Source of the DNA: Oscillospiraceae bacterium
Lineage (GTDB): Bacteria; Bacillota; Clostridia; Oscillospirales; CAG-272
Direction of reading: 5' to 3'
Assembly: GCA_015065005.1 (NCBI GenBank)
Contig: SVRE01000012.1
Location: 1-43,041, forward strand
Length of the DNA stretch: 43,041 nt
Below, in pieces: positions 192 through 32,676 of the stretch. Under the pieces are notes generated by a model. It was given only the letters and a program-made list of their open reading frames with translations, was not told the origin of the DNA and ran no database searches. Both the position numbers and the translations under genes were made by a program. Each line of letters starts with the position of its first letter. Position 1 is the first letter of the stretch.

Positions 192-217
192 AAAACAACC
201 TCCTTAAATATTTCCGT

Positions 218-270
218 AAAACAAAAAGTCTTTTTTCTAAACTGCAAAAATGCACACCGAAAAAAGACTT
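218..270 (-). terminator. Attenuator hairpin in the rplJ leader
   Basis: On the minus strand a 12-bp perfect stem (AAGTCTTTTTTC with GAAAAAAGACTT, 226-237 and 259-270) is followed by TTTTTGTTTT. It lies between the L10-binding leader and the rplJ ribosome binding site, the position expected for a regulated terminator. Regulation by L10(L12) binding is inferred from the known family. Confidence 0.8.
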
Positions 271-351
271 AATTTATCATATGAAATAATATTAATTCTT
301 CCTCGGCAGGGAGCATTTAGCAATTACTGTGACCTGCTGTCTTTGGATTTG
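271..351 (-). promoter_or_regulatory. L10 ribosomal protein leader RNA
   Basis: The minus strand carries AAAGACAGCAGGT and then CTCCCTGCCGAGGAAGAA, the two conserved strands of the L10 leader that mimic the L10 site on 23S rRNA. Binding of excess L10-L12 complex is known to repress the operon. It sits between the promoter at 359-387 and the attenuator at 218-270, directly ahead of rplJ. Confidence 0.85.
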
Positions 352-358
352 CCTTGAC

Positions 359-387
359 ATTATAGCACGCAAGATAGCGTTTGTCAA
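359..387 (-). promoter_or_regulatory. Consensus sigma-A promoter of rplJ
   Basis: A perfect TTGACA (382-387) and a perfect TATAAT (359-364) are separated by 17 bp on the minus strand. This places the start near 352, at the beginning of the L10 leader. It lies 20 bp beyond the dnaI stop codon, and no strong terminator separates them, so dnaI transcripts may also read into the leader. Confidence 0.9.
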
Positions 388-2357: not shown

Positions 2358-2500
2358 GCCGAAGGCATATCGTACCATTTAGGTATATCGTTTGAACGAG
2401 ATTTTCGATACTCGAAAACGATATTGGGCAAACCCAACGATATATTGCAAGGGCAATACGATATTTTTGCTGAAGCAAAAGTTAAGCTGACAGGTCAGCT
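2358..2500. repeat. Hairpin array 1 (CGATAT-linked mini-stems)
   Basis: Chain of short perfect stem-loops. Clear members are TCGTTtgAACGA (2388-2399), TTTTCGAtacTCGAAAA (2402-2418), TTGGGcaaaCCCAA (2424-2437), ATTGCaaggGCAAT (2444-2457), TTTTGCtgaaGCAAAA (2465-2480) and AGCTGACagGTCAGCT (2485-2500). The three linkers in the right half read CGATAT or ACGATAT. In the left part (GCCgaaGGC at 2358, TACCatttaGGTA at 2373) the linker is inverted, ATATCG. The last hairpin overlaps the tsaD stop codon. The array fills the tsaD-dnaD gap. Confidence 0.85.
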
Positions 2501-4432: not shown

Positions 4433-4514
4433 AATACCTCCGTATTTTCGCCATAGGCGAAGGTGATATTCCGTGCAAGCACGGAGTGATATTTTAATGC
4501 CACGCCTTTAAAAT
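4433..4514. repeat. Hairpin array 2 (GTGATAT-linked mini-stems)
   Basis: Members are AATACctccGTATT (4433-4446, loop is the comEB ribosome binding site), TTCGCCataGGCGAA (4447-4461), TCCGTGCaaGCACGGA (4470-4485) and ATTTTAA...TTTAAAAT (4491-4514). Linkers are GGTGATAT (4462-4469) and GTGATAT (4486-4492). The array fills the whole gap between the topB stop and the comEB start. Confidence 0.85.
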
Positions 4515-31127: not shown

Positions 31128-31151
31128 ATTTTATAAATTCAAAATTAATAT

Positions 31152-31176
31152 TGTAGGGGAGGGGTCAGCCCTCCCG
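31152..31176. repeat. TGTAGGG hairpin repeat, copy 1
   Basis: TGTAGGGG start followed by GGGAGGG / CCCTCCC (31157-31163 and 31169-31175) and closing CCG. It lies 24 bases after the ykpA stop, left of hairpin array 3. Confidence 0.8.
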
Positions 31177-31181
31177 CCACA

Positions 31182-31280
31182 AAACAGGTGATATGTTGCT
31201 GCGCAACGTGATATTCGGCGTTGCCGGGTGGTATTTGCCACTTGTGGCAAGTGATATTTTTGCTTGCGCAAAAGTGTATT
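31182..31280. repeat. Hairpin array 3 (GTGATAT-linked mini-stems)
   Basis: GTTGCtgcGCAAC (31195-31207), CGGCgttGCCG (31216-31226), TTGCCACttGTGGCAA (31235-31250) and TTTTGCttgcGCAAAA (31258-31273). Linkers are GTGATAT (31188-31194, 31208-31214, 31251-31257), a variant GGTGGTAT (31227-31234), and GTGTATT closing the array. It is flanked on both sides by TGTAGGG repeats and lies in the gap between ykpA and the flavoprotein gene. Confidence 0.9.
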
Positions 31281-31285
31281 GTTAT

Positions 31286-31311
31286 TGTAGGGCGGTGGCT
31301 TGCTGCCGCCG
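31286..31311. repeat. TGTAGGG hairpin repeat, copy 2
   Basis: TGTAGGGCGGTGGCTTGCT then GCCGCCG; the stem is GGCGG / CCGCC (31291-31295 and 31306-31310). It shares loop and frame with the copy at 41375-41400. Confidence 0.8.
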
Positions 31312-31344: not shown

Positions 31345-32586
31345 GTGTACGAGCAGCAAAGGGTTGCAATAATCGGTGCAGGTGCCGCCGGTATGATGAG
31401 CGCAATTTATGCAGCGCAAAACGGGGCATTGGTTACTGTTTTTGAAAAGAATGACAGGGTCGGCAAAAAGCTCGCCATAACAGGCAAGGGCAGATGCAAT
31501 GTAACCAATGACTGTGATACACAGGAGCTTTTAAAGAACATAATATCCAATCCCAAGTTCTTATATGCTGCCTTCAGTAATTTTGACACAAGCGATACGA
31601 AAGCGTTTTTTGAAAATTTGGGTGTACCTCTTAAAACGGAAAGGGGCAGGCGGGTTTTCCCCGTCTCCGATAAGGCGCTTGATATTGTTTTCGCCCTTAA
31701 AAAATGTATGCATGATTATGGCGTTACCGTAAATCACGAAAAAGTAACAGAACTGATACAGAAAAACGGAAAAGTCACAGGGCTTAAAGCACAGGGCAAG
31801 GCATATGAATTTGACTCCGTAATAGTTGCCTGCGGCGGCGCTTCCTATCCGCAAACAGGCTCAGACGGTGACGGATTTATATTTGCTAAGTCAGTCGGGC
31901 ATACGGTAACTCCGTTGGTGCCGTCCCTTGTGCCCTTGGAAACAACGGAAAATGTCAGCGAAATAATGGGTGTTTCATTAAAAAATGTCACCTTGAAAAT
32001 CAAAAACAACCAAAGTGGCAAAATTGTTTTTGAGGAAATGGGTGAGATGCTCTTTACCCATTTTGGCTTAAGCGGACCATTGGTGCTTTCTGCCTCATGC
32101 CATATGGCAAAAATGGAAAAGGGAAAGTACTCGGCTGTGATAGACTTTAAGCCGGCACTTGATATTAAAACACTTGATACAAGAATTTTAAGCGATTTTT
32201 CAAAGCAGCTTAACAGGGATTTTCAAAATGCTCTTGGCGGCTTATTACCGTCTAAAATAATACCCTTTATGGTGAAAAAAAGCGGTATTGACGGAAACAC
32301 AAAGGTGAATAATATAACAAAGGAGCAAAGGCAAGCTCTGATTAGCACATTAAAGTCTCTGACTCTTGAAATAAAAGGCTTTCGCCCAATAAAGGAAGCA
32401 ATAATCACCCGGGGCGGCGTCAGTGTTAGCGAGATAAACCCATCGACTATGGAGTCTAAAAAAATAAAAGGACTTTACTTTGCAGGTGAGGTTATAGATG
32501 TGGACGCGTATACAGGCGGCTACAATTTGCAAATTGCATTCTCGACAGGAGCACTTGCAGGCATGCATGCGGCGTGGGGAGAATAG
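31345..32586 (+). CDS. NAD(P)/FAD-dependent oxidoreductase, BaiN/YhiN (HI0933) family
   Basis: 413 aa from a GTG at 31345, with AGGGGG eight bases ahead; an upstream TTG at 31300 lies in the repeat. The Rossmann GAGAAGMMSA (GxGxxG) binds FAD; GRCNVTN, VVACGGASYPQTGSDG and ITRGGVSVSEI are family markers, and AGEVIDVDAYTGGYNLQIA closes the FAD site. Members are flavoproteins of largely unknown substrate, one being a bile-acid dehydrogenase. It follows ykpA and precedes cmk, each after a hairpin array. Confidence 0.88.
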   Translation: MYEQQRVAIIGAGAAGMMSAIYAAQNGALVTVFEKNDRVGKKLAITGKGRCNVTNDCDTQELLKNIISNPKFLYAAFSNFDTSDTKAFFENLGVPLKTERGRRVFPVSDKALDIVFALKKCMHDYGVTVNHEKVTELIQKNGKVTGLKAQGKAYEFDSVIVACGGASYPQTGSDGDGFIFAKSVGHTVTPLVPSLVPLETTENVSEIMGVSLKNVTLKIKNNQSGKIVFEEMGEMLFTHFGLSGPLVLSASCHMAKMEKGKYSAVIDFKPALDIKTLDTRILSDFSKQLNRDFQNALGGLLPSKIIPFMVKKSGIDGNTKVNNITKEQRQALISTLKSLTLEIKGFRPIKEAIITRGGVSVSEINPSTMESKKIKGLYFAGEVIDVDAYTGGYNLQIAFSTGALAGMHAAWGE

Positions 32587-32676
32587 CACGAAAGGTGCAA
32601 AGATATTTCGCTTTGCGAAGAGATATTACCTTCGGTAGTGATATTTGCCTGTGGCAAGAGATATTGCTACCGCAGT
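32586..32676. repeat. Hairpin array 4 (rkGATAT-linked mini-stems)
   Basis: GCACgaaagGTGC (32586-32598, sharing the last base of the preceding stop codon), TTCGCtttGCGAA (32607-32619), TACCttcGGTA (32627-32637), TTGCCtgtGGCAA (32645-32657) and a weak last stem near 32665-32675. Linkers are AAAGATAT, GAGATAT, GTGATAT and GAGATAT. It fills the gap between the flavoprotein stop and the cmk binding site AAGGAG at 32682-32687. Confidence 0.9.

Follow-up and report, generated by a model that had tools for sequence, protein, structure and literature searches.

What kind of element holds a short linker constant while the hairpins that it joins differ from one to the next? The question is raised by positions 31182-31280 of a 43,041-nucleotide stretch of Oscillospiraceae DNA, referred to here as the window, which is contig C72 of a 2.06-Mb genome assembly in 103 contigs from an uncultured member of the Clostridia (G000, the source genome). 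Its nearest named relative is a MAG from roe-deer colon, in which a neighboring protein is 85% identical, as judged from one collection scan that may omit very near records. A preliminary description, made from the letters of the window, had reported four perfect stem-loops at this locus, and all four are present: GTTGC/GCAAC, CGGC/GCCG, TTGCCAC/GTGGCAA, and TTTTGC/GCAAAA. The three further arrays that it listed were likewise found (Table 1). Its conserved GTGATAT linker holds as a conserved core, but the linkers are looser than described; GTGATAT, GTGGTAT, GAGATAT, AAGATAT, and CGATAT all occur, the last in both orientations at 2358-2500, where the final GATAT hairpin is TTTTGC/GCAAAA. The 31182 array sits between an ABC-F-like ATPase gene, for which ABC-F models score below their own cut-offs, and a gene for an FAD enzyme of the aminoacetone-oxidase family. 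The 32586 array starts right behind the stop codon of the FAD enzyme and precedes cmk, which passes the cut-off of its model. At the 2358 and 4433 arrays, GATAT reads on the plus strand, yet both lie between minus-strand ORFs.

Table 1. Features of the window and of other loci, with their positions
Feature	Location	Strand	Details
One-directional four-hairpin array	window 31182..31280	+	linkers GTGATAT, GTGGTAT, GTGATAT; Gut-1-like, GATAT variant
One-directional array	window 32586..32676	+	linkers AAGATAT/GAGATAT/GTGATAT
Array with inverted halves	window 2358..2500	.	ATATCG left, CGATAT right, central hairpin between
Two-hairpin array	window 4433..4514	+	GTGATAT linkers; flanked by two minus-strand ORFs
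GTAG-tagged palindrome, REP-like	window 31151..31182	+	left neighbor of 31182 array; hairpin class as in the GTAGGG palindromes of L082
Second GTAG-tagged palindrome	window 31285..31311	+	right neighbor of 31182 array; short matches elsewhere in genome
Ribosomal protein L10 leader (RF00557)	window 213-364	-	56.9 bits; cut-off 44
Gut-1 over cut-off	L035 9858-9935 (G000)		64.3 bits
Gut-1 over cut-off	L035 9012-9087 (G000)		54.4 bits
T-box leader	L035 9245-9485	-	94.4 bits; cut-off 93; between the two Gut-1 arrays
RAYT-like Y1 transposase gene L082	G000 C76:4563-4964		two GTAGGG palindromes within own reading frame
Further arrays with other linkers	L099 6844-6938; L134 5231-5300; L083 2766-2858; L194 221-266; L178 1685-1808		GTTATGAA, AATTTAGCT, ATCATAACT, CAATTCATG

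The window arrays are real, and chance is excluded as their source. Runs of at least three perfect hairpins with GATAT occur twice in the window and runs of at least two occur three times, as compared to none of either kind in 300 dinucleotide block shuffles. GATAT is the top-ranked of all pentamers in this hairpin-run test. Across the source genome, the pattern TGATATTN{9,30}TGATATT affords 31 matches, some of which are clearly no hairpins, versus one match for the reversed control pattern. It is matched in 34 of 38 genomes (the source genome counted), with part of these matches arising by chance. The description of modular hairpins on a conserved linker stands far above chance, with 0 of 300 shuffles giving a match.

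The preliminary description knew of no element of such design. Rfam, however, holds one: the consensus of the Gut-1 RNA motif (RF01706) consists of three hairpins joined by a GUGAAAU linker. A scan of 12 sources (140.5 kb) at Rfam gathering thresholds affords two Gut-1 matches in another contig of the source genome. At relaxed thresholds, the window itself matches RF01706 at 32598-32669 (45.6 bits, E 2.3e-7) and at 31186-31262 (43.6 bits, E 7.6e-7), both under the cut-off of 50. Each match spans the full model (positions 1-77), that is, three hairpins plus the conserved linker, and the former bears four non-standard pair marks. The window arrays contain no GUGAAAU linker, and GTGAAAT copies are present in contigs C103 and C57 of the source genome. 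Judged by their sequence, the window arrays are Gut-1-like, a GATAT variant, rather than members of Gut-1. In the part of the 2010 report by Weinberg et al. that was available (PMC2864571), Gut-1 is marked as certainly RNA, as probably not cis-regulatory, and as occurring in the human gut only. A literature search limited to open-licence papers found no function for Gut-1.

The stems are only partly free: their arms vary, whereas the loop apex is conserved and strand-specific. This assignment follows from 214 different hairpins bounded by linkers of five families, among which the loop-closing pair is C-G, its C lying on the linker strand, in 175 and G-C in 13, and from 109 triloops, of which 58 are C(TNC)G and one is the mirror form C(GNA)G. 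In DNA, loops of the GNA type have high stability. Triloop stability was considered as proof of single-stranded DNA and was rejected, given that ViennaRNA with RNA and with DNA parameters yields equal energies for both orientations. The apex bias is therefore called strand-specific and is assigned neither to DNA nor to RNA.

The stems had also been described as sharing no sequence, a statement that the 31182 array does not bear out. Across the window and 20 own-genome loci, each of the four 31182 modules is found again behind a G.TAT linker, with counts (window included) of three for GTTGC/GCAAC, three for TCGGC/GCCG, two for TTGCCA/TGGCAA, and six for TTTTGC/GCAAAA. None of the three 32586 modules, by contrast, recurs in the 20 own-genome loci searched. 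By eye, TTTTGC/GCAAAA closes six of nine arrays (31182 and 2358 in the window, L031, L035 twice, and L036); it is not the last hairpin in the 4433 or 32586 array, and in L040 it is so in part. Module order and unit number differ between arrays. The preliminary description had named the recurrence of its strings elsewhere as one consensus, as in a known repeat, as an outcome that would refute it, and such recurrence is seen in part, both in the 31182 modules and in 13 near-identical copies of a related element in the congener G009.

The architecture of the full-length element was read from copies retrieved with patterns written for a seven-hairpin plan, a plan that, found in this way, is common to several host families. 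A tRNA CCA end, a terminator, or another hairpin comes first. The left half, with four hairpins, then runs L0-H1-L1-H2-L2-H3-L3-H4 and is followed by P0', which is complementary to L0 together with the 5' arm of H1. The right half, R1-H5-R2-H6-R3-H7-R4, carries inverted linkers. Covariation supports the long-range stem P0: the L0/R0 value is 0.867 for paired rows and 0.635 for shuffled ones (maximum 0.706 of 2000), in a test of 62 rows that gave related copies full weight and included three rows taken from the opposite strand. The arm common to H1 and P0 predicts a bistable element, with H1 and P0 as competing folds. As a separate observation, the right half of L091 has a TGTAGGG palindrome inside H6 of a Gut-1 element, an instance of nested palindromic elements.

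The inverted layout also suggested a fishbone in which left linkers pair with right linkers, and this was rejected. Left-right complementarity is 65/123, as compared to a shuffled mean of 62.6 and a maximum of 69, and has no support from covariation. These numbers bear on the proposal that linker-to-linker pairing (GTGATAT with ATATCAC) builds a ladder of four-way junctions as the functional fold of full-length elements. The halves are indeed inverted in full-length copies, and own-genome copies have GTGGTATT facing AATACCAC; linker variants are nevertheless mismatched across the halves, and we regard such a fold as scarcely credible.

A tRNA gene directly precedes the element in 8 of 11 G173 loci. 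For a tRNA-linked copy, the two genomes searched in its genus yielded no precisely empty site, and the ends are not sharp in the copies compared. Among 27 GATAT-type copies with enough flank, 11 lie between complementary arms, as if in a terminator loop, an arm being a stretch whose exact complement of at least 9 nt lies ~200-360 nt downstream; the permuted mean is 1.4, with a maximum of 6 of 300. Ten of the 11 complementary arms contain a run of A, and 16 of the 27 copies are without such arms. These data are partial evidence for a terminator-loop position of the GATAT type.

Presence of the arrays is lineage-specific. Orthologous gaps were read by eye in 25 congeners in which the FAD-enzyme gene was located; the window arrays were seen in neither gap of these genomes, in a reading that covers the second gap in all but G428 and G009, views long gaps to 420 nt, and covers only the 250 nt before the FAD enzyme in G011, G017, G019, and G426, where the ABC-F gene was not located. 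In 6 of the 25, by the same reading, an orthologous gap contains a different array or element: the first gap holds another array in G016 (ATATCGTT linkers) and a full element in G009, and the second gap, before cmk, holds arrays in G006 (CTAAATT), in G002 and G012 (ATGAATTG), and in G022 (GTTATGAG). The 250 nt ahead of the FAD enzyme in G011 contain an apparent element remnant. Both right-hand window arrays are also missing from the named relatives L095-L097. A processing element within operons, as had been suggested, fits poorly with arrays that are unseen in the gaps of 25 relatives and with GATAT running antiparallel to the genes in two of four arrays.

Copy number is high within the genus. 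RF01706 is matched in 28 of 29 congeners, with 52 matches in G427 and 50 in G009, and, of 391 genomes in the class, in 64, with 39 of these passing the cut-off. The 14 control genomes afford a match in E. coli alone, which is weak and does not reach the cut-off. Thirteen copies in G009, chosen for near-equal scores, share a 69-nt core that is 97-100% identical, and their upstream flanks are unrelated, with a mean identity of 26%. A hairpin lies directly upstream of 13 of these 13 copies, as compared to 282 of 520 random places in the same loci under the same loose rule. Because so many random places also pass, the case for insertion beside hairpins in G009 is weaker than the impression by eye.

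These distributions can be set against a genuine sRNA or 3'UTR element, that is, a transcribed row of hairpins that serves RNA stability, processing, or regulation of a neighbor. Such an element would be consistent with the strong pairing constraint and the covariation of P0, with the strand-specific loop apex, and with the filing of Gut-1 by Weinberg et al. It would not be expected to go unseen in orthologous gaps or to have another array in its place there, to lie in both orientations relative to genes, or to be scattered within a single species as 13 near-identical copies whose sites are unrelated. We consider this explanation unlikely, while giving it more weight than any other alternative discussed here.

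Dispersal of this kind calls to mind REP/BIME-like palindromes, which a Y1 (RAYT/TnpA) transposase would move by reading the linker on hairpin single strands. The source genome encodes a RAYT-like protein (L082), GTAG-tagged hairpins flank the 31182 array, and a short conserved tag next to a hairpin is the design of REPs. However, PF01797 is found in 41 of 63 Gut-1-positive genomes and in 45 of 80 Gut-1-negative genomes (p = 0.31), and G124, which is 98% complete and has 11 Gut-1 matches, is without it. The GTAG palindromes fit the Y1 enzyme, and those of the window look like REPs of L082, whereas the GATAT arrays do not fit it. The missing association with PF01797 speaks against the Y1/RAYT transposase as the mover of the GATAT arrays, and we hold this route to be very improbable.

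A different protein is encoded next to some of the elements. The short ORF that follows these belongs to PF05635 (23S_rRNA_IVP) and also to TIGR02436, four helix bundle protein. This gene lies ~50 nt beyond the element in a minority of copies; among 44 full-length copies with a right flank of at least 350 nt, five have an IVP gene within 250 nt. The window has none (tblastn best E 0.99). PF05635 occurs in 26 of 26 Gut-1-rich genomes from outside the genus and in 4 of 25 Gut-1-negative genomes (Fisher p = 1e-10, with genomes that are not independent), where the rich set was hand-picked from 63 Gut-1 positives, each member with at least five matches, the negatives are 25 of 325, and the PF05635 match in one rich genome, G196, is weak (E 1.9e-4). 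Within the genus, 27 of 29 congeners have PF05635. G007, the sole congener without a Gut-1 match, is also without IVP; G016, the other IVP-less congener, shows 20 Gut-1 matches at a completeness of 53%.

By eye, an element lies upstream of the IVP gene in 22 of the 30 best IVP loci, and eight are without an array. A linker-hairpin score of at least 3, a threshold set after the scores were seen, is reached upstream in 19 of 30 IVP loci, downstream in 5 of 30, and in 8 of 444 control windows; a score of at least 5 is reached in 6 of 30, 1 of 30, and 0 of 444, respectively. The order tRNA, element, IVP gene is found in 12 of the 30 loci. These associations can be compared with an account in which no mobile system acts, and slippage grows linker-hairpin units while template-switch correction of quasi-palindromes keeps the stems perfect. 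Variable unit number and order, with modules reordered between arrays, would be consistent with it. It leaves unexplained the dispersed near-identical cores with unrelated flanks of the related element in G009, the seven-hairpin plan in several host families, and the links of the elements to tRNA ends and to IVP genes. As the general explanation it is improbable, although slippage could still act on the one-directional arrays of the window.

Array and IVP gene are co-inherited. Linkers differ by lineage, comprising GTGATAT, GTGAAAT (Gut-1), GTGATGT plus AATGATGT, GTGAAGT, ATGAAG, CTAAATT, and GAATT. A tree was built from 34 IVP proteins (those of the 30 loci except L360, omitted for an internal stop, plus L090, L094, L178, L231, and L308). 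On it, the linker label requires 7 changes, the fewest possible, versus 22.9 when shuffled, with 0 of 200 shuffles as low, where labels were set by eye, the two GATGT forms were merged, and "none" was its own state. The host family label requires 19 changes. CTAAATT and GTGAAGT are not single clades, with 2 changes each, and the eight array-less IVP loci group together. The IVP of L369 (G021) is apparently chimeric, with an N-half of the CTAAATT type and a last 39 residues equal to those of the GATAT-type L359; this locus carries CTAAATT linkers, so that the linker matches the N-half. IVP clades thus largely match linkers, and they follow the linker rather than the host. A matching tree would also result from array and IVP gene traveling together, without any binding. 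L357, L361, L364, L367, and L378 belong to a separate IVP clade and show no hairpin array by eye; the IVP genes of L357, L364, and L367 follow simple repeats in tandem, for example AAATGGCAAATTG or ATGCAGAATGC.

Our analysis leads us to favor, as the probable explanation, an IVP-linked family of small selfish elements in gut Clostridia, of whose hairpin part the window arrays would be free-standing copies with no coding capacity. They are not of the full plan, and their tie to the full element consists of the linker, the modules, and the Gut-1 score; they are probably non-autonomous or decayed. In the proposed mechanism, a cognate IVP, or a partner of it, would read the linker and the strand-specific apex on folded RNA or single-stranded DNA. 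With recognition of linker and apex, the stems would need only to remain self-complementary. Copies without the gene, such as those in the window, would have been moved in trans or would have decayed, and a site beside or inside hairpins, like that of 23S rRNA IVS elements in rRNA helix loops, would keep harm low. The lattice for protein binding that the preliminary description envisaged would thereby gain a candidate binder, the IVP protein. A broader proposal, which we advance tentatively and rate as somewhat less than an even chance, is that a large class of selfish hairpin-array elements is recognized by four-helix-bundle proteins of the S23/IVP family, each lineage reading its own linker on folded RNA or single-stranded DNA, possibly via the N-half, with which the linker goes in L369. 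Gut-1 would then be one linker dialect, and the rRNA IVS would be the ribosomal branch.

The design of hairpins on a linker is already in Rfam; what appears to be added here, from sequence comparisons, is the link of IVP to Gut-1-type arrays, and none of the titles found in the open-licence literature search ties IVP to hairpin arrays. In the portions of the sources available, S23p proteins are described as being without a known function (PMC4990558), and PF05635 is said to resemble the Avd protein of diversity-generating retroelements (PMC10053308). Two orphans, the Gut-1 RNA motif of 2010 and the S23p/IVP protein family, are thus joined into one testable system. If IVP reads the linker, the arrays would offer natural address codes between proteins and hairpins, a means by which selfish DNA escapes notice within terminators and downstream of tRNA genes, and a function for this Avd-like protein family. 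They also carry the warning that convincing covariation in an Rfam sRNA family does not keep it from possibly being a mobile repeat.

Among known systems, Gut-1 is the closest in design, sharing with the window arrays hairpins with varying stems on a conserved linker. Its linker contains GAAAT, whereas the window arrays have mostly GATAT and score below the gathering threshold. Gut-1 is filed as an RNA and, in the available part of its report, as confined to the human gut; here it makes up half of a larger element dispersed among numerous Clostridia, and MAGs from deer and goat gut are the closest relatives of the window that bear a name. The IVS of Coxiella is described, in the part of the source available, as a selfish element of 428 nt that occupies helix 45 of 23S rRNA; it has a long terminal stem, and heptamers in tandem precede the start of its S23p gene (PMC4990558). 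In common with such 23S rRNA IVSs, the elements studied here have the protein family (in a minority of copies), a location at hairpins, and a short motif that is repeated ahead of the gene. They differ in location, given that an IVS sits in a 23S rRNA helix and has as its hallmark this site together with excision by RNase III, whereas the elements inspected here lie outside rRNA, after tRNA ends, in terminators, and between genes. The repeats of an IVS are tandem, whereas the short repeats here are spaced by hairpins, and an IVS carries the S23p gene, whereas most checked copies here (all but the 5 of 44) and the window arrays do not. REP/BIME elements with RAYT are likewise short extragenic palindromes with a conserved tag, in high copy and specific to a lineage; unlike them, the GATAT arrays have neither a GTAG/CGTC tag nor co-occurrence with a Y1 transposase. 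Like MITEs, the arrays are non-coding, multi-copy, and apparently moved in trans.
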